39,357 nt of DNA from Myxococcota bacterium (GCA_023150845.1 JAKLKD010000031.1:1-39357), one strand, 5' to 3'; positions 2,073 to 37,869 are shown, counted from the first letter of the stretch. Program-made: numbers and translations. Notes: generated by a model from the sequence alone, not told the origin.

Positions 2073-4096
2073 GCGCGGTCAGAGCCCCGTTCGCCGGGTT
2101 ACCCTCACCGGCGAACGCTGCGCTCTGGGGTCCCCTCGTGAACCTCCTCCTCCGCCCGTCTACGCGCTGGCTGCGCGTCGCCACCCTCGCCATCGGGATC
2201 GGGCTCCTCGCCGGGGGGATCGAGGCCGCCCAGCGCGGGCTCACGAGCGCCCTGGACCTCAGCTTCACCGAGGCGCTGCTCGTGGGCCTCTGCGGCTGCG
2301 GCCTCGGGGCGCTCTTGGCGGCCCCGATCGGGGCGGTGGTCGGCGGGGCGCTCCAGCTCATCGGGCGGCGCTGGCTCGACTCCAAGGTGCTCGCGGCGAG
2401 CATGGGGCTCACGACCTTCTTCGTCGCCTTGGTCTACGTCCTGCAGACCGTCTTGGAGCTCCTGGAGGTCGGGCGCACCCCGGGCGCCTTGGCGATGCTC
2501 GGCACCCCGGTCGGCTTCGCGGGCATGGTCTGGACGAACGCGAGCTACCTCTTCCGGAAGGAGGAGCTCGGGCGGCCGGCCCGGGGGAGCTGGCTCGGGG
2601 TGTCCACGGTCGGGGCCCTGGTCTTGTGCCTCATCGGCGCCGGGATGAGCAGCCAGCGGGGCTACGGCTCCTCCCGGGCCCTCGCCGGGGACCCCAACGT
2701 CCTGCTCATCACCATCGACACCCTGCGCCGCGATCACGTCAGCGCCTACGGCCTCGGCCTCGCCAAGACCCCGAACCTCGACAAGCTCGCGGACAGCGGG
2801 GTCCTGTTCTTAGACGCCGTGACGCCGACGCCGGAGACGGCCCCGGCCCACGCGACGCTCTTCACGAGCCTGCACACCCTGCGGCACAAGGTGCTGTCCA
2901 ACGGCGACAGCCTGGAGGAGGGCCACGTCACCCTCGCCGAGCGCCTGGAGGAGGAGGGCTACGCCACCGCGGCCTTCGTGTCCTCCTACGCCGTGAACCA
3001 CCAGACCGGCCTCGACCAAGGCTTTGAGCTCTACGACGACGACTTCTTCACCGCGCCTCGGGGCCTCGGGCAGCTCACCTTGGCGCGCTACGCCGTGAAG
3101 CTACTCTTCGCCGCCGGGCTGCCCCACCTCGCGCCGCGGCTCCTGGAGCGGGACGGCGCCCTCACCGTCGAGCTCGCCGGGCGCTGGATCGCCGACCGCG
3201 GCGAGCGCCCTTGGTTCGCCTGGGTTCACCTCTTTGAGCCCCACGCCCCCTACGAGGCCCCCGGCGCCGCCGTAGACCACCGCGCCCTTCTCACCAACCC
3301 CGGCCACGTCTACACCGACGCCGAGGCCGCCGAGCTGCGCCGCCTCTACGCCCTGGAGGTCGAGCGTGTCGACGCGCTGGTGGGCCAGCTCTTGGAGACC
3401 CTCGCCGCGGCCGGGGCCGACGAGCGCACCCTCGTCATCGTCACCGCGGACCACGGCGAGCAGCTCGGCGAGCACGGCATCCAGTTCCACCACCACGGCC
3501 TCTACGACGAGTCCATCCGGGTGCCGCTCATCGTGCGCCCGCCCGGCGGCGCGCTCCGGGGGCGGGTCGTGCCCCAGCAGGTGCGCCTGATGGACGTCGC
3601 CCCCACCGCCCTCAAGGTCATCACCCTCGACCCGATGAAGCTCTCTGAAGGTGTGGAGCTCCTGCGTTACGCCACGGGGGAGCAGACCCAGTCCCTCGTC
3701 GCCGACCTCTTCGGCCGCGAGACCGCCGACCTCAGCCAAGGCTGCCTCTTCGGCCTGCGCTCGGCCTGGGCCGAGGCCCCCGCGGCGCCCCCTGCTGACG
3801 CCCCGCCCGGCCCCGACGGCACACCCGCCCCGGCGGCTCCGGCGGAGACCGGCGCCCGGGTGAAGTACATCTTGGACCCCGACGCCCAGACCGAGCTGCT
3901 CTTTGACCTCGTGAAGGACCCCGGCGAGCAGACCAACATCGCCGCGGCCCAGGTGCTCGCCGTGCAGGCCGCCCGGGCCCGCGCCGCCCCAGCCGCCAAA
4001 TCGACGCCGTGTGGTCAGCGCTCGGGGGGCCTCGGCCTCGGCGAGCAGCGCATGCTGGAGGCGCTCGGGTACGTCGAGAAGGGCGACGCCAAGTGA
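2069..4096 (+). CDS. Membrane-anchored sulfatase/alkaline-phosphatase-fold enzyme
   Basis: 675 residues. The N-terminal third holds about five hydrophobic segments (roughly 36-52, 66-98, 110-130, 143-160, 178-192), and the catalytic domain then lies outside the membrane. It begins with NVLLITIDTLRRDH at 210-223 (metal-binding D217). The nucleophile motif reads T257-A-P-A-H261 where classical sulfatases have C/S-x-P-S-R, so there is no Cys or Ser for formylglycine; a Thr nucleophile is typical of phospho- or phosphoglycerol-transferring relatives. VTADHGEQLGEHG supplies the second metal site. A Pro/Ala-rich insert (about 570-595) precedes the C-terminal region, where DLVKDPGEQTN is the usual sulfatase ending. 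GTG starts couple it to htpX upstream and to the YfhO-like gene downstream. The substrate is unknown; an envelope lipid or glycan is likely. Confidence 0.88.
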   Translation: MSAVRAPFAGLPSPANAALWGPLVNLLLRPSTRWLRVATLAIGIGLLAGGIEAAQRGLTSALDLSFTEALLVGLCGCGLGALLAAPIGAVVGGALQLIGRRWLDSKVLAASMGLTTFFVALVYVLQTVLELLEVGRTPGALAMLGTPVGFAGMVWTNASYLFRKEELGRPARGSWLGVSTVGALVLCLIGAGMSSQRGYGSSRALAGDPNVLLITIDTLRRDHVSAYGLGLAKTPNLDKLADSGVLFLDAVTPTPETAPAHATLFTSLHTLRHKVLSNGDSLEEGHVTLAERLEEEGYATAAFVSSYAVNHQTGLDQGFELYDDDFFTAPRGLGQLTLARYAVKLLFAAGLPHLAPRLLERDGALTVELAGRWIADRGERPWFAWVHLFEPHAPYEAPGAAVDHRALLTNPGHVYTDAEAAELRRLYALEVERVDALVGQLLETLAAAGADERTLVIVTADHGEQLGEHGIQFHHHGLYDESIRVPLIVRPPGGALRGRVVPQQVRLMDVAPTALKVITLDPMKLSEGVELLRYATGEQTQSLVADLFGRETADLSQGCLFGLRSAWAEAPAAPPADAPPGPDGTPAPAAPAETGARVKYILDPDAQTELLFDLVKDPGEQTNIAAAQVLAVQAARARAAPAAKSTPCGQRSGGLGLGEQRMLEALGYVEKGDAK

Positions 4097-6432
4097 GCGC
4101 CCCCCGCCTGGAGCGTTGGCCCTGGGCGGCGGCGCTGTTCATGGCCGTCGCCGCGGCCCAGACCCCGGACGTGCTCCTGGGCCGGGGTGTGCTCTGGTCC
4201 CACGACCTCCGGCACCACCACCTCCCCTGGCGCCACTGGGCGGCCACCCAGGTTCGCGCCGGGGAGTGGCCCTTGTGGTGCCCGGAGATCGGCGCGGGTT
4301 TCCCCCTCGCCGCCGACGGCCAGACCGGCGTGTTTTACCCGCCTTACGCCGCGTTGGGCCTGCTCTTTGAGGCCCACACCGCGCTCAGCCTCTCCGTCAC
4401 CCTGCACACCGCCTGGGCCGGCCTCGGCGGCTGGTGGCTGTGCCGGGGCCTCGGTCGCAGCGGCCTCGCCAGCGCGCTCGGCGGCCTCATCATCATGCTC
4501 AGCGGCTTCTTGACCGCCCACGTCACCTACGCCGGGATGCACGCCGTGGCGGCCTGGGCGCCTTGGGCCTTGGGCGCCGCCTGGCGCCTGGGCCGGGGCG
4601 AAGGTGGGGCGCTGCCCTTCGCCTGCGCCGTCGCCGCCTTGTGTACGGCGGGGCACCCCCAGCTCGGCGCCATCGGGCTCTTGGGGGCGCTGCTGCTCTT
4701 CTTGATGAGCCGCCCGGCCCTGCCCGCCTTCGTGAAGGCCGGCCTCGCCGCCGCGGTGGGCCTCGCCGCCGCCGCGCCGCAGCTCGCCGCCAGCCTGGAG
4801 CTCGCCGAGCTGAGCGCCCGGGCGGGCGGCGTCGATGAGGCCTTCGCCGGGATCGGCTCCTTGCCACCCCAAGAGCTCGTGAACGCCGTGCTCCCCCGCT
4901 TCTGGGGCTGGGAGCGCCCGGCGGACATCCCGCTCACCTACGTTCATAAGGCCGCCGCCTACTTCGGCACCGGGGAGACCCACTGGGAGGACTGCTTCTA
5001 CCTCGGCTTCCCGGCCCTGGCCTTGGCGATGTGGGGGCGCGGTCGGGCGCTGTGGGCCCTGGCGGCCTTGAGCCTCGTCTGGGCCTTGGGGCGCTACACC
5101 CCGGCCTACGAGCTCCTCCGGGCTTTGCCAGGCTTCGACCTCTTCCGTTTCCCCGCGCGCCTGCTCTGGCTGCTCACCCTCGCCGTGGCGGCCCTCGCCG
5201 CGGGGGGACTCGACCGTCTGATGAGCGACGAGGGGGAGGCCCTCGCCGAGCGAGGCGCCCGGCGCGCCTGGGCCGCCCTCGCCCTGCTCGTCGCCGGGGG
5301 GCTCCTCGGCGCCGCGCTCCTCCAGGCCGTCGAGCCGATGGTCCGGGGCGCGCTCATGGGGGCCTTGGGCGACCGCCCCGACGGGCCCGCCCGCATCGAC
5401 GCCCTGATCCAGGGCATGCGTTTTAACGGAACCTGGGGCCTCGCCGCCCCGGCCCTGAGCCTCGGCGCCTTGGCCCTCTTGCTCCGCCAGCGCGCGGCGC
5501 TCGGCCTCGTGGCGCTGGTCGGCCTCGACCTGGGCTCCGCCCTCTACAGCTACAACCCCCGGGTGTCCCCCGCCCTGGTCACGACGCCCCCTGCGACGGT
5601 GGGGCTCCTGCCCGAGGGCTACGCCGCGTCACTGGACCGCACCACGGTCATCGACCGCGTCGTGCCGCACGCCCTCGACCGTGAGCTGATGAGCGCCTCC
5701 ATCGGCCTGATCTGGGGCACCCACGACGTCATCGCGCTCTCGCCCCTGCGCCTGCCCGGGCACGAGGCGCTCCTGGCGAGCGCGGGCCTCGACGTCGGCC
5801 TCGACCACGGCCCGGAGAAGGCCCGCCAGCTTGAGAGCGGCCTCGCCATCGCCGAGCTCCTCGGCGTACGAAACCTCCTGACGGTCCACGCCTTGAGCCA
5901 CCCCCGCCTCGTCGAGCGCGGCGCCGTCGAGGTCGCCGACGGCGTGGTGCGGGTCTACGAGGCCACCGGCGCCTTGCCCCGAGCCTTCGTGGCGCCTTGT
6001 GTGGCCTGGGCCGCGGACGAGGCCGACGCGCTCACCACGCTCAAGGCCGTGGACCCCGCCCAGGTCGCCGTGCTCTTCGGTGAAGGGGAAGATCGTTGCG
6101 ACCCGGCGGTCTCCCCACGAGGGGGCGGCGCCACGATCACGCGCTACAGCCCCGACGCGCTTGAGCTCACCGCCCAGGGCCCCGGCGTGCTCATGCTCAC
6201 CGACACCTACTACCCCGGCTGGAGCGCCACCCTCGACGGCGCCCCGGCGACGATTCACCGCGCGGACCTCAGCCTGCGCGGCCTGCTCCTCCCCCCGGGT
6301 GAGCACCGCCTCAGCTTCCGGTACGAGCCCGCCTGGGCCTGGACCTTGCCCCTGGGCGTCGGGGCCTGGCTGGCCTTCGCCTTGGGTGTCGTGGTCCAGG
6401 GGGCCCGACGGCTGACACGAATGTCGCGGTGA
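4093..6432 (+). CDS. YfhO-like polytopic membrane protein (GT-C-type)
   Basis: 779 residues from the GTG at 4093, which overlaps the previous stop as GTGA. After the first membrane segment comes D38-L-R-H-H-H-L-P-W, the acidic first-loop site of GT-C-type glycosyltransferases. The family pattern G-F-P-L-A-A-D-G-Q-T-G-V-F-Y-P-P lies at about 69-84. Roughly ten further hydrophobic helices follow, then an extracytoplasmic C-terminal domain with DTYYPGWSATLDG and LPPGEHRLSFRY, characteristic of YfhO proteins, and a last membrane helix. In Firmicutes YfhO helps glycosylate lipoteichoic acid. Here, next to a sulfatase-fold transferase, it more likely decorates an envelope glycan or lipid. The specific reaction is unknown. 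Confidence 0.85.
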   Translation: MSAPRLERWPWAAALFMAVAAAQTPDVLLGRGVLWSHDLRHHHLPWRHWAATQVRAGEWPLWCPEIGAGFPLAADGQTGVFYPPYAALGLLFEAHTALSLSVTLHTAWAGLGGWWLCRGLGRSGLASALGGLIIMLSGFLTAHVTYAGMHAVAAWAPWALGAAWRLGRGEGGALPFACAVAALCTAGHPQLGAIGLLGALLLFLMSRPALPAFVKAGLAAAVGLAAAAPQLAASLELAELSARAGGVDEAFAGIGSLPPQELVNAVLPRFWGWERPADIPLTYVHKAAAYFGTGETHWEDCFYLGFPALALAMWGRGRALWALAALSLVWALGRYTPAYELLRALPGFDLFRFPARLLWLLTLAVAALAAGGLDRLMSDEGEALAERGARRAWAALALLVAGGLLGAALLQAVEPMVRGALMGALGDRPDGPARIDALIQGMRFNGTWGLAAPALSLGALALLLRQRAALGLVALVGLDLGSALYSYNPRVSPALVTTPPATVGLLPEGYAASLDRTTVIDRVVPHALDRELMSASIGLIWGTHDVIALSPLRLPGHEALLASAGLDVGLDHGPEKARQLESGLAIAELLGVRNLLTVHALSHPRLVERGAVEVADGVVRVYEATGALPRAFVAPCVAWAADEADALTTLKAVDPAQVAVLFGEGEDRCDPAVSPRGGGATITRYSPDALELTAQGPGVLMLTDTYYPGWSATLDGAPATIHRADLSLRGLLLPPGEHRLSFRYEPAWAWTLPLGVGAWLAFALGVVVQGARRLTRMSR

Positions 6433-31044: not shown

Positions 31045-31315
31045 ACACCAGGCGGCGCTCGGGGATGACCTCCAGGTAGCAGCCGTCCCCCTCGGGCATC
31101 CGGACGCCGTCGGGGCCCTGCATCACCGTCATGAACTGGCCGCCGGGGCGCAGGTCGATCTTACACTCCACGACCTTCCAGGGCCGGGGGCAGAACCACT
31201 GCATGAGCTCCTCGGGGTTCGTCCAGGCACGCCACACGCGGGCGGGGGACACGGGCACCCAACGCTCCAGGACGAGGTCGAGCTCGGGGTTGATGGTGAT
31301 GTCGATCGGGGTCAT
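30830..31315 (-). CDS. SRPBCC (AHSA1-type) domain protein, module 1
   Basis: 161 residues forming one START/AHSA1-like lipid- or ligand-binding fold: LVLERWVPVSPARVWRAWTNPEEL, MQWFCPRPWKV, DLRPGGQFMTVMQGPDG, and GFHHGWGAALDQLVEMA at the end. Such proteins usually sit next to an ArsR regulator, and this one starts on the ArsR stop (ATGA). The ligand is unknown. Its 3' end overlaps the open frame of the convergent GT-C gene by 215 bases. Confidence 0.85.
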   Translation of the reverse strand: MTPIDITINPELDLVLERWVPVSPARVWRAWTNPEELMQWFCPRPWKVVECKIDLRPGGQFMTVMQGPDGVRMPEGDGCYLEVIPERRLVFTDALRPGFRPSGEAFQTGMLLLEPEGEGTRYIAIARHANPETRKQHEEMGFHHGWGAALDQLVEMAQAQP

Positions 31316-31662
31316 GGCGTCGGCTCCTGGTCGTTGATGAGGAAGTGGTCGAGCTGGTCGAGGCGCCTCGTCCAGAGGTCTCGCTGCTCGGCGAGCCAGC
31401 CCTCCATCGGCTTGAGGGCGTGGGGGGCCAAGGCGTAGGTGCGGACACGACCGCTCTTCTGAGAGGTCACGATCCCCGCGTCTTCGAGCACCCGGAGGTG
31501 CTGCACGAAGGACGGCAAGGCCACGTCGTAGGACGCGGCCAGCTCGCTCACCGACGCGGGGCCCCGCCCGAGGCGCTCCACCACCCCACGCCGCGTCGTG
31601 TGCGCCAAGGCGAGGAGCACGGCGTCGAGGCGGGAGGCGGAGGGTGGCTGGGCGTTCTGCAC
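31312..31662 (-). CDS. ArsR family winged-helix transcriptional regulator, module 1
   Basis: 116 residues with the ArsR fold: LDAVLLALAHTTRRGVVERL, ASVSELAASYDVALPSFVQHLRVLEDAGIV as helix-turn-helix, then wing SQKSGRVRTYAL and the C-terminal WL-x-x-Q-R-DLWTRRLDQLDHFL typical of regulators paired with SRPBCC genes. There are no metal-binding Cys clusters, so it is probably not a metal sensor. The GTG start at 31662 lies inside a near-palindromic operator-like repeat, suggesting tight autoregulation or a leaderless transcript. It is cotranscribed with the SRPBCC gene. Confidence 0.85.
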   Translation of the reverse strand: MQNAQPPSASRLDAVLLALAHTTRRGVVERLGRGPASVSELAASYDVALPSFVQHLRVLEDAGIVTSQKSGRVRTYALAPHALKPMEGWLAEQRDLWTRRLDQLDHFLINDQEPTP

Positions 31663-31690
31663 AATACTTAGGTAACAGACTAAGTGTTGT
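31661..31690. promoter_or_regulatory. Operator-like palindrome overlapping the arsR-1 start codon
   Basis: ACAATACTTAG (31661-31671) and CTAAGTGTTGT (31680-31690) match as inverted repeats at 10 of 11 positions around an 8-base spacer. The site is AT-rich in an otherwise GC-rich stretch and touches the GTG start of the ArsR gene. Binding by the encoded regulator is the natural hypothesis. Confidence 0.5.
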
Positions 31691-31739
31691 GCGGCGAGGG
31701 GGGCGCCCCAAAAAAGTGCGGCGATGATCCTGGGCGCCC

Positions 31740-32129
31740 TCAGCCCTCGTCGTCGGGCGCCTGGGCGGGCCCCTCCCCAGGGGGCTCCTGGGCCGCGGAC
31801 TCCAGGCGGCGCTGGCGACGCCCCCGGGCGACCTCCGTGGCCAAGGCGTCGAGGCGGCTCACCCAGAGGGCCCGGAACTGGTCGAGCCAGAGGTCCACGG
31901 CCTGGAGCGGCGCCGCGCTCAAGGAGTAGAGGCGCCGGGTGCCGTCGATACGCACGACGACGAAGCCCGTCTCGCGCAGCACCCGGAGGTGCTGGGAGAC
32001 GGCGGGCTGGGAGAGGCCGAGCTCCTCGCCGATGACCTGGGCGATGGCCCCCGCGGGCCGCTCACCGTCGGCGAGCAGCTCCAGGACGCGGCGGCGCGCG
32101 GGGTCACCCAAGACGTCGAGGGCGTGCAT
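31740..32129 (-). CDS. ArsR family winged-helix transcriptional regulator, module 2
   Basis: 129 residues. MHALDVLGDPARRRVLELLADGE and GLSQPAVSQHLRVLRETGFVVVRIDGTRRLYSL are the ArsR helix-turn-helix and wing (broken across the fold). LQAVDLWLDQFRALWVSRLDAL is the C-terminal helix of the SRPBCC-linked group. A Gln/Arg and then Pro/Glu/Asp-rich tail follows. It comes after its SRPBCC partner (10 bases between), the reverse order of module 1. No metal ligands are visible. Confidence 0.85.
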   Translation of the reverse strand: MHALDVLGDPARRRVLELLADGERPAGAIAQVIGEELGLSQPAVSQHLRVLRETGFVVVRIDGTRRLYSLSAAPLQAVDLWLDQFRALWVSRLDALATEVARGRRQRRLESAAQEPPGEGPAQAPDDEG

Positions 32130-32138
32130 CGACCTACC

Positions 32139-32777
32139 TCATGCCCCCCCAGTGTAAAACGCGGCGGTGCGCCCCGCCGCCTCGCGGGCGGCCTCGGCCT
32201 CGTCTCCCCCGGCGATGGCGGCCTCTCCCCAGGACCGGGCGGCGCGCCGGGTGAGGTCGAGGCCCTCGGCGGACATCGTCCAGGCGATGACGGCCTCCCG
32301 GTCGAAGGGCAGGTCCCGGGCGCCGACGTAGAGCGCGAGGCCCAAGAGGCCGAGCTCCCAGCCGACGCCGACCGCGCCAGGCCCGTACTGCGTCCAGAAC
32401 TCCTCCGGCACAAACGCGACGTGCTCGAGGGTGAGGGTCGTCCAGCCCGGTGCCGCGGGGCTCAGGGTGACGGTGACCCAGCTCACCTCCCCCCGCATCT
32501 CCCAGGTCAGGCCGAGGCGGCGCGGCGGCTCACAGGCCGTCACCTCGCCCCCGGCGTTGCCCTCAAGCTGGTAACGGCCGCCGAGGCGCAGCTCGCCGTG
32601 AACGGGCAAGAACCAGCGGGGGATACGCTCGGCGCTCGTGAGGGCGTCCCAGAGGTCGGCGGCGTCGGTGTTGTAGGCGCGGGTGGCCACGACCACCCGG
32701 GCCGGGCGGCCCTCGTGCTCACGGCGGGTGACGGCGCGGGCGGTCGCGCCGAGGTGGTGAAGGATGTCGAGGTCCAT
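32139..32777 (-). CDS. SRPBCC domain protein with C-terminal extension, module 2
   Basis: 212 residues. The AHSA1/SRPBCC fold covers about 25-160 (VVVATRAYNTDAADLWDALTS, IPRWFLPVHGELRLGGRYQL, LTLEHVAFVPEEFW, YGPGAVGVGWELGLLGLALY). An extra helical C-terminal part (about 165-212, SAEGLDLTRRAARSWGEAA) includes Ala/Glu-rich helices. Such proteins are common partners of ArsR regulators; the ligand is unknown. It is first in the two-gene module, with an AT-rich palindrome about 25-45 bases upstream. Confidence 0.8.
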   Translation of the reverse strand: MDLDILHHLGATARAVTRREHEGRPARVVVATRAYNTDAADLWDALTSAERIPRWFLPVHGELRLGGRYQLEGNAGGEVTACEPPRRLGLTWEMRGEVSWVTVTLSPAAPGWTTLTLEHVAFVPEEFWTQYGPGAVGVGWELGLLGLALYVGARDLPFDREAVIAWTMSAEGLDLTRRAARSWGEAAIAGGDEAEAAREAAGRTAAFYTGGA

Positions 32778-32904: not shown

Positions 32905-33981
32905 ATGATCGAAGGATTCACGCTGCCCGAGGTGCTCGGCGCTGAGGGCGCGGCGCGGCTTGAGCCTTTGCTCGACACGCTCGGCGAGGCCGACGCTGAG
33001 GCGCTTTGCGCCGATCCCGAGGGCCAGGCCGAGGCGATCCGGGAGCTCACGAGGCTCACCCGCAGCCTGCTCGACAGCTTCGGCGACCTCTCCCTCATCC
33101 ACGAGACCGTCGTCGAGCACGCCACCGAGATGGAGAACGAGCTCTCGGTGCAGAACGAGCGCATCACGGCGCTCACCGAGAACATGCGGCGTTACCTCTC
33201 CCCGCAGCTCTACGCGCGGATCTCCGGCGGTGAGGTGCGCGCCACCTCCCAGCAGAACCGCCGCCGCCGGATCACCGTGTTCTTCTCCGACATCGTCGGC
33301 TTCACGGACATGACGGACACCGTCGAGCCCGAGGTGCTCTCCGAGGTGCTCAACCGATACCTGGAGGCGATGGTCGAGATCGCGACCCGCTGGGGCGCCA
33401 CCATCGACAAGTTCATCGGCGACGCGGTGATGGTGTTCTTCGGCGACGACGACGAGACCGACCCCGCCGAGGGCGCCTACCGCTGCGTCGGCATGGCGCT
33501 GGAGATGCAGGCCGACGTGGGCCGCCTGCTCGACGCGATGTCCCTCGGCGCCGACCGCCGTCTGCTCACCCGCATGGGCATCAACACCGGGGTCTGCACC
33601 GTCGGCAACTTCGGCTCGGTGACCCACCGGATGTCGTACACGGCCATCGGCGGCGCGGTGAACATCGCCTCACGCCTGGAGGGCGCCGCACCCCACGGCG
33701 GCATCCTCATCAGCGGCGCCACCTACCACCTCATCGCCGACCGGATCGTCGCCGAGCCCCGGGGCGCGCTGAAGCTCAAGGGGGTGTCGCACCCCGTGGA
33801 GACCTATGAGGTCCTCGGCCTCGCCGGGGACAAGCTCGCCGGGCGCACCACGCTCACCGAGGTCGAGGGCGGCTTCCGCCTCGCGCCTCTGGAGCTCGTG
33901 CCCGGCGTCACCTCCGGCGTCGAGCGCCGCGAGATGGCCCTCGCCCTGCGCGCCGCCCTGCGCCTGCTTGAGCGAAGCTGA
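32905..33981 (+). CDS. Class III adenylate cyclase, soluble
   Basis: 358 residues. Makes cAMP from ATP. An N-terminal helical region (about 15-95, with coiled-coil character at 65-95) precedes the cyclase homology domain. Metal-binding D129 (FFSDIVGFT) and D173 (KFIGDAVMVFF) are present, adenine-selecting K169 and T246 (YTAIG) indicate ATP rather than GTP, and N253 and R257 (VNIASRLE) complete the active site. There is no membrane segment, HAMP or GAF domain, so the sensor input may be the N-terminal coiled coil. The methyltransferase gene follows after 27 bases and is probably cotranscribed. Confidence 0.92.
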   Translation: MIEGFTLPEVLGAEGAARLEPLLDTLGEADAEALCADPEGQAEAIRELTRLTRSLLDSFGDLSLIHETVVEHATEMENELSVQNERITALTENMRRYLSPQLYARISGGEVRATSQQNRRRRITVFFSDIVGFTDMTDTVEPEVLSEVLNRYLEAMVEIATRWGATIDKFIGDAVMVFFGDDDETDPAEGAYRCVGMALEMQADVGRLLDAMSLGADRRLLTRMGINTGVCTVGNFGSVTHRMSYTAIGGAVNIASRLEGAAPHGGILISGATYHLIADRIVAEPRGALKLKGVSHPVETYEVLGLAGDKLAGRTTLTEVEGGFRLAPLELVPGVTSGVERREMALALRAALRLLERS

Positions 33982-34008: not shown

Positions 34009-34854
34009 ATGTCTCAGGAAGAGACCCGCCCCAACCAGCACGCCTGGTCGGACGTCGACAAGGCCCCGGACACCCAGGCCTTCGCCGCCTACCTCGACAC
34101 CCTGCGCGGCTTGGACGCCATCGCGGAGTACAAGCGGCGCTCCATCGAGCGGTTGCGCCTCAAGCCTGGCCAGCGGGTGCTGGACCTCGGCTGCGGGACG
34201 GGCGACGACACGGCCCTGCTCGCCGCCGCCGTGGGCCCCGCCGGGGGCGCCCTCGGCGTGGACTTCTCCGGGGCGATGGTGGACGAGAGCCGCCGCCGCT
34301 GGCTCAACAAGGGCCTGCCGTTGTCCTTTGAGGTCGGCGACGTACACAAGCTGGACCTGCCGAACGACCACTTCGACGGCGTGCGCGCCGACCGGGTGTT
34401 TCAGCACCTCGCCCAGCCGACAGACGCCTTGGCGGAGCTCGTGCGGGTGACCCGCCCCGGGGGCCGGGTGGTCGTGAGCGACCCCGACTGGGGCACCTAC
34501 ATCCTCGACGCGCCGCCGACCCCTGCGGTGCTCAAGTACCACGACCTCGCCCAGCGCCAGGCGAAGAACCCCTGGATCGGCCGCCAGCTCTACGGCATGT
34601 TCCGCGCGCTCGGCCTCGTGGAGCTGGAGGTCACCGTCTCGGTCACCACCTTCACCGACCTCAACGTGCTGGAGCGCCTGGGCAACCTCGACGCCGGGTT
34701 CATCACCGCCGTGCAGACCGGCCAGCTCACCGAGGCCGAGGTCGGCGCGGTGAAGCGGGTGCTGCGGGAGCGCCAGGACGCCGGGCGCTTCTTCGGCTCG
34801 GTGAACATCTACACCATCTCGGGCGCCTTGCCCGAGGCGGTCAGCGCGCCTTGA
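34009..34854 (+). CDS. Class I SAM-dependent methyltransferase
   Basis: 281 residues, soluble. SAM-binding motif I is RVLDLGCGTGDDTALLA at about 56-72, the acidic loop is GVDFSGAMVDESRRRW, motif II/III is DVHKLDLPNDHFDGVRADRVFQHL, and VTRPGGRVVVSDPDWG completes the Rossmann fold. The ubiE/methyltransferase-11 type is typical; the substrate cannot be told from sequence. The last 14 bases overlap the 3' end of the convergent STAS gene. Confidence 0.9.
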   Translation: MSQEETRPNQHAWSDVDKAPDTQAFAAYLDTLRGLDAIAEYKRRSIERLRLKPGQRVLDLGCGTGDDTALLAAAVGPAGGALGVDFSGAMVDESRRRWLNKGLPLSFEVGDVHKLDLPNDHFDGVRADRVFQHLAQPTDALAELVRVTRPGGRVVVSDPDWGTYILDAPPTPAVLKYHDLAQRQAKNPWIGRQLYGMFRALGLVELEVTVSVTTFTDLNVLERLGNLDAGFITAVQTGQLTEAEVGAVKRVLRERQDAGRFFGSVNIYTISGALPEAVSAP

Positions 34855-35173
34855 GCGTGAGCTTGGGGTAGAGCCGGGCCAAGGACGGCAAGGTCTTCTT
34901 CTGCCAGGAGACCTGCTCGTCGATGATCACGGTGAGCTGAACGCTATGCTCACGCGCCAACATGACGAGGCGCGAGAGCGCGGTGATGCCTGAGCTGTTG
35001 AGGAACTGGAGGCCCGCGAGGTCGAGCTCAAGGGGCCCCTTCGCGGCCTCGATCTGGTCGTGCACCGCGGCGAGCGCGCTGCGATACGCCGCGGGCGAGA
35101 CCAGCCGCATGACGCCGGACAAGGTCGCGCCGTCCGCGCGAAGCTCCAGCTTGTACTCACCCTCTACGCTCAT
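34841..35173 (-). CDS. STAS domain anti-sigma factor antagonist
   Basis: 110 residues, one STAS domain like SpoIIAA/RsbV. The phosphorylation loop reads LQFLN59-S60-S61-G-I, so S60 is the probable phospho-acceptor; the usual preceding Asp is Asn. It is the last gene of the operon with a SpoIIE-type phosphatase and a HATPase, so it is expected to be phosphorylated by the HATPase and dephosphorylated by the phosphatase, switching a target such as an anti-sigma factor or enzyme. AGGAG precedes its start. No sigma factor is nearby, so the output partner is unknown. Confidence 0.85.
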   Translation of the reverse strand: MSVEGEYKLELRADGATLSGVMRLVSPAAYRSALAAVHDQIEAAKGPLELDLAGLQFLNSSGITALSRLVMLAREHSVQLTVIIDEQVSWQKKTLPSLARLYPKLTLKAR

Positions 35174-35197
35174 GGGGGGCTCCTAAACAGGAAGTGG

Positions 35198-35767
35198 TCA
35201 GCCGCGCTCGACCGCGTCAACCTCCAGCGCGAGCTGGAGCGTGACGTGGAAGCGCTCAGGGTCGTCGGGGACCGCGCGTATCTCCGCGGAGAGGCGGGCG
35301 CCGTAATCTTTCTTGAGGTTGATGAGGCCGAGGCCTGAGGCCGCCCGGTCCCGGGACGCGGTGTGCTCAAGCTGCTCCAAGAACAGCTCCTCGGGGTCCG
35401 TCGTCGCCATGCGGGTGAGCCGCGCCCGCAGAGCCGCGACCTCGGCGCGGCGGGCCTCGTTCTGGGTCTCAAAGGTGATGACCTCGCCGAAGTGGCTGAT
35501 CTCAACGGAGACCGGCCGCTGCTTGTCCGCAGAGAACTTCGCGAGGTTCTCGATGAGCTCGTTGAGGCCCGTGCTGAGCACCTGGGCGGCCACCACCCGA
35601 GACTCAAAGTGGTACTCGAAGTAGCTCGCCAAGAAGTCCGCCATCTTGCTGCACCGGCGCCACTGCACGATGAGATCGATGGGCAGAAGCTCGATTCGCA
35701 GGTTGGAGAGGCGGTCCGCGGGGTCTTGGGGCGTCAGGGTGTCCCCGACCTGGCCGAGTAGGTCCAT
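35198..35767 (-). CDS. SiaB-like HATPase (DUF6272-type) protein kinase
   Basis: 189 residues. It is a compact GHKL ATPase: the N box is GLNELIENLAKFS (N69, E70, N74), and the G2-like glycine motif is ASGLGLINLKKDYGARLSAEI at about 143-163. Together with the STAS protein downstream this matches the SiaB/SpoIIAB type of serine kinase that phosphorylates a STAS antagonist. The start ATG at 35767 is one base after the upstream stop. Whether it also binds a sigma factor is unknown. Family assignment to SiaB rather than RsbW is inference from layout (no typical RsbW sequence motifs). Confidence 0.7.
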   Translation of the reverse strand: MDLLGQVGDTLTPQDPADRLSNLRIELLPIDLIVQWRRCSKMADFLASYFEYHFESRVVAAQVLSTGLNELIENLAKFSADKQRPVSVEISHFGEVITFETQNEARRAEVAALRARLTRMATTDPEELFLEQLEHTASRDRAASGLGLINLKKDYGARLSAEIRAVPDDPERFHVTLQLALEVDAVERG

Positions 35768-35768
35768 C

Positions 35769-36443
35769 TCAGCCCTCCGCCTTGGGCGAGCGCGCCGGGA
35801 GCTCAAAGACCGCGGGCAAGGTCAGCTCCCGGATCTCAGGGGGGATGTCTACCTCGGGGATGATCAGGCGGCTCTGCATCGGGTCGTGCTCGGAGCGGTA
35901 CTCCGAATGGATCGGGTACCGCGGGAAGGGCGCGAGGTAATGGGAGTGCACGGGCCCCTTGGGCGCGAAGAAGCGGTCCAGGATCGACACCGTCGCGCAG
36001 ACGAGCAAGAGCACCGGGCGGCCGTCCGCGTCCCAGTCCCCCTCACAGAAGCCCCGGCTGAGCGCGGCGTGGAAGATGTGGCGGGCGAGGCCGAAAGACT
36101 CCCAGCCCTCCCGCACGACGAGCTTCGTGATCTCGCGGCGGGTGGCGTTGACGTAACGATCGACGACCCCCGAGGCGACGAGCTCGGCCTGCACCTCGTC
36201 GTCGGTGATGCCCCCGTACCGCTCGACGTAGGTGTCGCGGGTGTAGAGCGCGAAGGCGCAGACGATCAGCCCGTCCACGGTCCCCATGAGGTACTTCTGG
36301 GGGTAGGGCTCGATGCGCGCGTCGAGATCATGGCTGTCCTCGGAGAACATGATCTGGTAGCGCCGGTTGTAGGTCTCCGCGATGAAGTACTGGCATCGCA
36401 GCACCTCGGCGCGCGTCTTGGCGATGGAGATCTTGAGGAGCAT
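35769..36443 (-). CDS. LuxI/FeeM-like (GNAT-fold) acyltransferase-like protein
   Basis: 224 residues. The N-terminal half is reminiscent of acyl-homoserine-lactone or N-acyl-amino-acid synthases: RCQYFIAETYNRRYQIMF (R16, F20), a DLD motif at 39-41, YLMGTVDGLIVCAFALY at 51-67, and REITKLVV at 103-110 where LuxI has the E-x-x-R-x-x-V strand. The second half (FHAALSRGF, VLLLVCATVSILDRFF) could be the acceptor side. Its start overlaps the phosphatase stop by one base (TGATG). In the partner-switch operon it may be the sensor, the output, or a producer of a lipid signal. The call rests on pattern resemblance only; an undescribed conserved protein is the alternative. Confidence 0.45.
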   Translation of the reverse strand: MLLKISIAKTRAEVLRCQYFIAETYNRRYQIMFSEDSHDLDARIEPYPQKYLMGTVDGLIVCAFALYTRDTYVERYGGITDDEVQAELVASGVVDRYVNATRREITKLVVREGWESFGLARHIFHAALSRGFCEGDWDADGRPVLLLVCATVSILDRFFAPKGPVHSHYLAPFPRYPIHSEYRSEHDPMQSRLIIPEVDIPPEIRELTLPAVFELPARSPKAEG

Positions 36444-37828
36444 CAGGCTTCCTGCCGTCTTGCGATGATGAACGTGACGTCGTCGTGGTACACGCCCTGG
36501 GTGAACCGCTCTAGGTCCTCGGTGAGCGCCGCCCGGATGGCCTCCAGGGGCCTCGACGCGTGGCGCTTGATGAACTCGATGAGGCGGGCCTCCTCAAACA
36601 TGCCCTGCTTGTAGTCGCCGGTCTTCGCGGCCTCGGTGACGCCGTCGGTGATGACGAACAGGGTGTCGCCGGGCTCGATGTGCAGCCGGGTCTCGGACAC
36701 GAAGTCCGCGGGGATGTCCTCGATAAGCCCGAGCTGGAACGGGAACTGGGAGACGGTCACCACCTCGACCTCCCCCGTGGCCTTGCGGTGCACGTAGAGG
36801 TTGTCGTGGGAGCCCGAGAGCACCAGCTCGTCATCCCGATCCATACACAAGGAGACGATGCTCATCGTGCGCTCCTCGCCCATTCGCGCGAGGTTCTGGT
36901 GCAGCACGCTGTTGGCGAGGAGGTTCAGCTCGCCGGGGCCGATGCTCTCCCGGGTGCGCAGGATGCTCGACATGACGCTCTGCGCCATGAGCATCACGAG
37001 GCCTGAAGAGAGGCCGTGGCCGGTGACATCGCCGAGGAGGATCCAGGCCCGGTCGCCGAAGCGCTGCACGTCGTAGTAGTCCCCGCCGACCTCGTCCGCG
37101 GGCTTCATGTAGCAGACGAGCTCAAGGCCCGGGACCTGGGGGTTGTGGGGCAAGAGCTGGGTCTGGATGCGGCGGGCGGCGTCCATCTCGGCGGCGGTGC
37201 GCGCCGTCTGGGCGGTGATCTTCTCGACGACGACGGCGGGGGCGAAGATGGACAGCGCGAAGATGCACAGGAGCCCAAGGCTAAAGCCGAAGGGGCCCCA
37301 CTCCGGCTTGTCGCCCAGAAGCGCGAAGTCGAGCATGTGCAGGCCGTAGAACAGGCTCGCGACGACCATGCCGAGCTCTGAAGAGCTCAGCCGCGCACGG
37401 TGCCTCAGGAGCAGCTCCCCAGCCGTCGAGAGCAAGGGGAAGGCCACGCCGCAGAGCAGGGGGAAGGTCACGAAGAAGAAGGGCAGCCCGGCGAAGTCGC
37501 TCAGGAGCGCGACCACCCAGCCCAAGCCCAACAAATAAAAGGACCGCCGCCATGACACGACGACGTCGGAGCTGATCGAGAGCAGGTGGGCGATGGCGCA
37601 AGAGATCGAGAAGACCGCGGTGAGCCCGACGAGCACCAGGGGCATCGCCGTCCCGGCGAGACCTTGCACCACGAGGCTCCCAAAGGTCGATCCCCAGATG
37701 AAGAGCTGGGCGCGGGTCAGCGCGTCACGCTGGCGAAGCCATAGCAGGCCCGCGACCAACGAGTTGATGAGCACGGCCCCCGCGTAGACGATGAGCAACG
37801 TGTTCAGGACCGCCTGCTGACCTTCCAT
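36443..37828 (-). CDS. Membrane SpoIIE-type PP2C serine phosphatase
   Basis: 461 residues from the ATG at 37828, chosen for its GAGG seven bases upstream; an ATG at 37852 is possible but lacks one. About six membrane helices fill residues 8-205. A short helical linker (MDAARRIQTQLLPHNP) leads into the PP2C domain with the metal sites D250 (VGGDYYDV) and D267 (LLGDVTGHG), then FVITDGVTEA and the final HDDVTFIIARR. It dephosphorylates STAS antagonists in partner-switching systems. It is first in a four-gene operon with a perfect TATAAT upstream. The membrane part may sense a signal; no named sensor domain is visible. Confidence 0.9.
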   Translation of the reverse strand: MEGQQAVLNTLLIVYAGAVLINSLVAGLLWLRQRDALTRAQLFIWGSTFGSLVVQGLAGTAMPLVLVGLTAVFSISCAIAHLLSISSDVVVSWRRSFYLLGLGWVVALLSDFAGLPFFFVTFPLLCGVAFPLLSTAGELLLRHRARLSSSELGMVVASLFYGLHMLDFALLGDKPEWGPFGFSLGLLCIFALSIFAPAVVVEKITAQTARTAAEMDAARRIQTQLLPHNPQVPGLELVCYMKPADEVGGDYYDVQRFGDRAWILLGDVTGHGLSSGLVMLMAQSVMSSILRTRESIGPGELNLLANSVLHQNLARMGEERTMSIVSLCMDRDDELVLSGSHDNLYVHRKATGEVEVVTVSQFPFQLGLIEDIPADFVSETRLHIEPGDTLFVITDGVTEAAKTGDYKQGMFEEARLIEFIKRHASRPLEAIRAALTEDLERFTQGVYHDDVTFIIARRQEA

Positions 37829-37869
37829 GCGTTTGCCTCGACCACCAGCCATCTTGGCTCGGGGGCTCG

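Follow-up and report, generated by a model that had tools for sequence, protein, structure and literature searches.

A slr1658-type partner switch with an acyltransferase-like gene and putative enzyme outputs in a member of the Myxococcota

Partner switches, which combine a PP2C phosphatase, a HATPase kinase, and a STAS protein, are usually described as controls of sigma factors; a few drive diguanylate cyclases. One such switch is encoded on the minus strand, at positions 37828 to 34841, of a 39,357-nucleotide stretch of Myxococcota DNA (GCA_023150845.1, JAKLKD010000031.1; hereafter, the window). It includes a fourth gene, for a 224-residue acyltransferase-like protein, and no sigma factor gene is found on the window, which is all of contig C430; the genome comprises 7.13 Mb and 444 contigs. 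What does this switch control, and does the fourth protein belong to its input, its core, or its output? The answer tentatively preferred here, at slightly less than an even chance, is that this slr1658/slr1659-type switch has enzymes as its output, namely, the GNAT-like 224-residue protein and, probably as an optional second target, a class III nucleotide cyclase encoded nearby.

A complete switch in a conserved four-gene operon

The operon consists of the genes for the PP2C phosphatase, the 224-residue protein, the HATPase kinase, and the STAS protein, in this order (Table 1). The stop codon of the phosphatase gene and the start codon of the second gene share one base (TGATG), a single base separates the second gene from the kinase gene, and 24 bases lie between the kinase gene and the STAS gene, which is preceded by AGGAG. 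The original prediction, made from the sequence of the window, had described exactly such an operon, with starts and stops overlapping or 1 to 24 bases apart and with the complete phosphatase-kinase-STAS trio; all of these components are present.

The same gene order is kept in a metagenome-assembled genome of the same genus (JAKLKE010000054.1, locus L009; hereafter, the congener) and in a member of a different class of Myxococcota (locus L043), that is, in three genomes from two classes. The gene pairs of the window and the congener are under purifying selection, with ratios of nonsynonymous to synonymous substitution rates (dN/dS) of 0.19, 0.29, 0.18, and 0.11 in operon order. Identities to L043, in the same order, are 46, 49, 40, and 50%. 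All four genes have therefore diverged to a similar degree, which fits a cassette that has stayed together.

Profile searches for the 224-residue protein covered 379 genomes sampled from the phylum, 318 from the class of L043, 63 from the order of the window, and 71 from its class, as well as plasmids, phages, viral contigs, and one contig scan that reached close relatives only. Just three true copies were found in the Myxococcota genomes, and each of the three lies between a PP2C gene and a slr1658-type kinase gene. None was found outside such operons in the four genome sets, which speaks against a refuting outcome named with the original prediction, that the gene occurs mostly outside phosphatase/STAS operons. 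The plasmids, phages, and viral contigs contained no distant homologs, and the contig scan returned the congener only. A weak match in another genome (G576; E value of 8.5e-4) proved to be an antisense frame of a different gene and was discarded as a chance hit. The 224-residue gene is real, linked, and a true member of the operon.

Phosphatase, kinase, and STAS protein

The phosphatase retains all of the PP2C motifs (DEVGGDYYD, GDVTGHG, TDG, and DD), and its closest solved structure is that of a putative serine phosphatase (6k4e; E value of 1.2e-8). The assigned start codon agrees with that of the congener homolog (L009:4616); a longer alternative, starting at position 37852, would encode 469 residues.

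The kinase, with the N box ELIEN and the G box SGLGL, belongs to the slr1658 superfamily. It scores above the curated cutoff of NF047703 (100 bits), as does its L043 counterpart (134.8 bits). The original prediction had called it SiaB-like; this family was ruled out, as the score against NF038262 is 32.3 bits versus a cutoff of 85, compared to 133 bits for slr1658.

The STAS protein resembles slr1659 and is a relative of that family below its cutoff. The window protein falls short of the thresholds of both NF047705 and PF13466 (Table 1), and the L043 protein, at 89.2 bits, is also under the NF047705 cutoff of 100. Comparison of the conserved NSSGI motif with N67-T68-S69 of SiaC, in which T68 is the phosphorylated residue (PMC8457831), makes Ser60 the predicted phosphoacceptor.

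The 224-residue protein probably has a GNAT fold

AlphaFold models were built from the alignment of the three homologs, with the window and L043 proteins as queries. Both models are of low confidence, and both display the element order strand-helix-helix-strand-strand. In Foldseek searches with these weak models, GNATs make up nearly all of the 50 best PDB matches (best E values of 0.064 and 0.018, none below 0.001), and EsaI, an enzyme of the LuxI family, is found at rank 49 for one of them. Since low-confidence models can mislead, this retrieval is taken as a hint only. The L043 homolog also matches the PF00583 profile, below its cutoff (E value of 0.027). The protein probably adopts a GNAT fold.

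The three homologs (77% identity between the window and the congener and 47% between the window and L043) share D36-x2-D39, E104-x-T106-K107, G118, and A/G120. The D-x2-D and E-x-T-K motifs resemble D45/D48 and E-x-S-R of LuxI, and the last two positions resemble half of the GNAT coenzyme A (CoA) motif. Of the conserved LuxI residues R24, F28, W34, D45, D48, R70, E101, and R104, the Phe, D-x2-D, and E-x-T-K are kept, R24 is replaced in L043, and W34 and R70 were not identified. Membership in the LuxI family was rejected, as the protein has no match to the Pfam autoinducer synthase profile at an E value of ≤10. Membership in the FeeM family was rejected as well: PF21926 has no match in this protein's own genome, and HHalign comparison with the FeeM-family proteins of the phylum is not significant, with short aligned pieces in matching places. 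Thus, the LuxI/FeeM-like GNAT fold of the original prediction survives as a probable GNAT-like fold, and the assignment to either family is contradicted by the profiles.

A class III cyclase with a putative STAS docking site

Near the operon, on the opposite strand, the window encodes a class III nucleotide cyclase (Table 1). Neither this gene nor the STAS-methyltransferase component of the sister systems described below had been mentioned in the original prediction. The cyclase retains both metal-binding aspartates (D129 and D173), the transition-state residues N253 and R257, and the K169/T246 pair; some adenylate cyclases characteristically have such a Lys/Thr pair. Across 284 genomes, its only matches with more than 300 bits are three other genes, the next best reaching 193. 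These three (L046, L047, and L079) are directly divergent from slr1658-type operons of the methyltransferase kind; they come from one family and hence are not independent. Class III cyclases are also found near the GNAT operons of both the window and L043; in L134, L141, L144, and L147, one lies immediately 3' of the STAS gene, and in L145, 5' of it. More distant cyclases (L106 to L121) have no STAS or kinase gene within 1.5 kb. The window cyclase is probably a further output of the switch.

Most of the switch-linked cyclases have in common a stalk motif (LSLIHETVVEHATEME in the window), which can be written as L-x2-[IL]-x2-[TFS]-x2-EH-[AS]-x2-[IM]-E and is matched imperfectly by L043 and L079. 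The motif was derived from the switch-linked cyclases themselves, but no other frame matched it in 1.7 million residues that included many other cyclases. It is not fully exclusive to switch-linked cyclases, as a relaxed form occurs once, at L088/L122, where the nearby genes show no slr1658-type switch; the L122 cyclase (L122:5889-7259) adjoins genes that, judged by eye, resemble HprK-type and ATP-grasp genes. The stalk motif may be where the STAS protein docks.

The S-adenosylmethionine (SAM)-dependent methyltransferase gene that starts 27 bp after the cyclase gene is a possible associate of the switch. It is kept in the congener, where its product is 79% identical and the cyclase gene is missing. 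On the far side of the cyclase gene, at positions 31312 to 32777 of the minus strand, there are two small genes for ArsR-like regulators beside SRPBCC-like genes, in a tandem arrangement (named by eye).

Table 1. Features of the switch operon and its neighborhood in the window
Feature	Coordinates	Strand	Basis or remark
SpoIIE/PP2C-type membrane phosphatase, 461 residues	36443..37828	-	PF07228, 117 bits; ATG at 37828
Membrane part of the phosphatase, residues 11 to 201	37226..37798	-	About six hydrophobic segments in a Kyte-Doolittle scan
PP2C catalytic domain	36455..37054	-	PF07228
Acyltransferase-like, probable GNAT-fold protein, 224 residues	35769..36443	-	Place in operon kept in L009 and L043; Foldseek searches with weak models
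E104-x-T106-K107 of the GNAT-like protein	36123..36134	-	Invariant in all three homologs
HATPase switch kinase, slr1658 superfamily, 189 residues	35198..35767	-	NF047703, 133.4 bits (cutoff, 100)
STAS-domain switch protein, slr1659-like, 110 residues	34841..35173	-	NF047705, 83.7 bits (cutoff, 100); PF13466, 28.2 bits (cutoff, 29.2)
Predicted phosphoacceptor Ser60 of the STAS protein (FLN-S-SGI)	34994..34996	-	Conserved NSSGI; compared with SiaC N67-T68-S69
SAM-dependent methyltransferase	34009..34854	+	PF13847, 77.8 bits; convergent, 14-bp overlap with the end of the STAS gene
Class III nucleotide cyclase, 358 residues	32905..33981	+	PF00211, 84.9 bits; about 0.9 kb from the operon
Cyclase stalk motif LSLIHETVVEHATEME, candidate STAS docking site	33088..33135	+	Common to most switch-linked cyclases

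Related switches with other enzyme genes

Kinases of the slr1658 superfamily that score above the cutoff are found in 8/284 sampled Myxococcota and in 27/318 genomes of one class. Genes around a set of these loci were typed with profiles built in this analysis. In most typed loci, a second kinase-like gene is followed by a STAS-methyltransferase fusion, a dCache-HAMP-PP2C phosphatase, the kinase, and the STAS protein. The fusion, identified by Pfam and NCBIfam matches, physically ties an enzyme to a STAS domain. It is never found together with the GNAT-like gene in a typed locus, and neither of the two is present in L134, L135, or L142. The GNAT-bearing phosphatases have a membrane part that differs from the dCache-HAMP sensors of the methyltransferase-kind operons. 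Rhizobial plasmids carry the same gene set as the fusion-type loci, after a GGDEF-EAL gene, as in the operon of Sinorhizobium meliloti.

Several loci show further variation. In L045 (positions 3865 to 5429), L046, L047, L057, and L060, a divergent second kinase-like gene and the fusion gene come before the phosphatase gene, and the STAS part of the fusion, as seen in L042, L045, and L046, is without the serine motif that the free STAS protein has. In L136 (7061 to 7999), L137 (6678 to 7616), and L140 (6616 to 7545), the slr1658/slr1659 kinase and STAS protein are fused in one frame of about 310 residues, followed by a second PP2C-kinase-STAS set. A ThiF-family gene (L043:4053-5210) lies directly downstream of the GNAT-type operon of L043. 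In L148 (G325:C506), from a congener of G278, the frame of the slr1658 kinase is broken, a phosphatase fragment is on the other strand, and there is no GNAT gene; this arrangement reflects either decay or an assembly error. The genome of the window encodes a second switch on another contig (L051:5635-8699, minus strand; G000:C88), in which PP2C, a DUF6272 kinase, a STAS protein, and an adenylate cyclase form a tight operon, and a similar switch is found in L055.

Proposed mechanism and alternative explanations

The presence of related switches beside genes for cyclic-nucleotide enzymes suggests that the switch acts on enzymes directly and not on genes. In the following scheme, we infer the fold, phosphorylation, binding, catalysis, and direction of control. 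A signal sensed by the membrane part of the phosphatase would turn on its PP2C activity, which would remove the phosphate from the STAS protein, probably at Ser60; the HATPase kinase would put it back. The unphosphorylated STAS protein would then bind enzymes and switch them directly. Of these, the 224-residue acyltransferase-like protein would be the operon's own enzyme and the constant partner in the GNAT variant, and the class III cyclase with its stalk, encoded 0.9 kb from the operon, would be a probable second target, frequent and optional.

Several observations weigh against an enzymatic GNAT output with a cyclase beside it. Sequence searches of Pfam, NCBIfam, and the PDB gave no match of worth for the window protein, and none to any GNAT profile at an E value of ≤10; the pLDDT values of the models of the window and L043 proteins are 42 and 38; and only three copies are available for comparison. 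The CoA motif, Q/R-x2-G-x-G/A, is partly kept, with E or N in place of Q/R, so that the protein might be catalytically dead. As to the cyclase, the congener lacks it at the corresponding position and has no close relative of it elsewhere in its genome. The missing family match, the weak models, and the incomplete CoA motif would also fit a protein that is no enzyme at all, having a degenerate GNAT-like or an unrelated fold and serving as a scaffold or an anti-partner within the switch. This seems unlikely, as E-x-T-K and D-x2-D are invariant in homologs that are only 47% identical, as expected of an active site, and both weak models retrieve almost nothing but GNATs.

The weakest link of the scheme is the direction of control for the GNAT-like protein, which could also act upstream. 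The cyclase would then be the sole output, and the GNAT-like enzyme would make the ligand of the phosphatase or acylate the switch proteins. The cyclase is the more general partner, as cyclases accompany slr1658-type switches both with and without the GNAT gene; the gene of the sensor phosphatase is immediately followed by the GNAT gene; and the GNAT-bearing phosphatases have the distinct membrane part noted above. However, the congener keeps the GNAT operon with no cyclase gene adjacent to it, and an arrangement with the cyclase as the only target appears fairly doubtful. An ordinary sigma factor switch of the SpoIIE/RsbU kind, with the sigma factor encoded elsewhere and the extra genes being passengers, is quite improbable. 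The 23 matches to sigma-70 region 2 on other contigs of the genome are compatible with it, but the kinase is of the slr1658 and not of the RsbW/SpoIIAB kind, and enzymes rather than sigma factors recur beside the relatives, although the typing of these neighbors covered a set of enzyme kinds and not sigma factors. The original prediction was correct in that no sigma factor is encoded nearby; with none on the 39-kb contig, a nontranscriptional output is likely.

The preferred reading, a switch with the GNAT-like protein and probably the cyclase as outputs, can be extended to a more ambitious, and rather doubtful, proposal. A signal-responsive acyltransferase, switched after translation by the unphosphorylated STAS protein, would couple the membrane phosphatase to the making of an N-acyl signal or to the acylation of proteins, and the slr1658-type class as a whole would have interchangeable acyltransferase and STAS-methyltransferase modules, along with stalked cyclases that share a STAS docking motif. 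If slr1658-type switches do generally drive enzymes (acyltransferases, methyltransferases, and class III cyclases), a class of switches with no assigned target would gain concrete ones. Both the GNAT cassette kept in three genomes and the stalk motif of the cyclases lend themselves to direct tests of binding.

Comparison with known systems

The switch itself is of a known kind. Its variant with a GNAT gene was not found in a limited search of the open literature, nor did such a search turn up a statement, for Myxococcota, that slr1658-type switches are linked to class III cyclases and STAS-methyltransferases. That link may be known in part to specialists, since the Bgr system has been described.

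The 224-residue protein is similar to the LuxI and FeeM GNATs in the predicted order of strands and helices and in its D-x2-D and E-x-[ST]-[KR] motifs; unlike them, it matches neither family in Pfam, and the FeeM comparison by HHalign is not significant. With Slr1658/Slr1659 of Synechocystis, the window system shares a kinase above the slr1658 cutoff and a STAS protein that resembles slr1659. A Synechocystis Slr1658 mutant overexpresses pgr5 (PMC7555055).

The SiaABCD system of Pseudomonas aeruginosa (PMC8457831, PMC7647112) also combines a membrane PP2C phosphatase, a HATPase kinase, a single-domain STAS-like phosphoprotein with an N-[ST]-S phosphoacceptor motif, and an enzyme encoded in the operon, and its output is nontranscriptional. 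SiaC, when unphosphorylated, activates the diguanylate cyclase SiaD by binding to its helical stalk, and phosphorylation prevents this (PMC8457831). In contrast to this system, where the enzyme is SiaD, the window operon has the GNAT-like gene between those of the phosphatase and the kinase, a class III cyclase is encoded nearby, and the kinase reaches 32 of the 85 bits required for the SiaB family. In the BgrR/U/V/W system of S. meliloti, BgrR is controlled by BgrV, whose phosphorylation state depends on BgrU and BgrW (PMC7647112). Its operon is probably that of L060 on pSymB, where the slr1658-type kinase (161 bits), the slr1659-type STAS protein (136 bits), and a PP2C phosphatase correspond to those of the window, whereas a GGDEF-EAL protein and a STAS-methyltransferase fusion replace the cyclase and the GNAT-like protein and the sensor is of the dCache-HAMP type. 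Since SiaD and BgrR are both enzyme outputs of described switches (PMC8457831, PMC7647112), the original claim that such switches offer no place for the fourth gene needs to be qualified.

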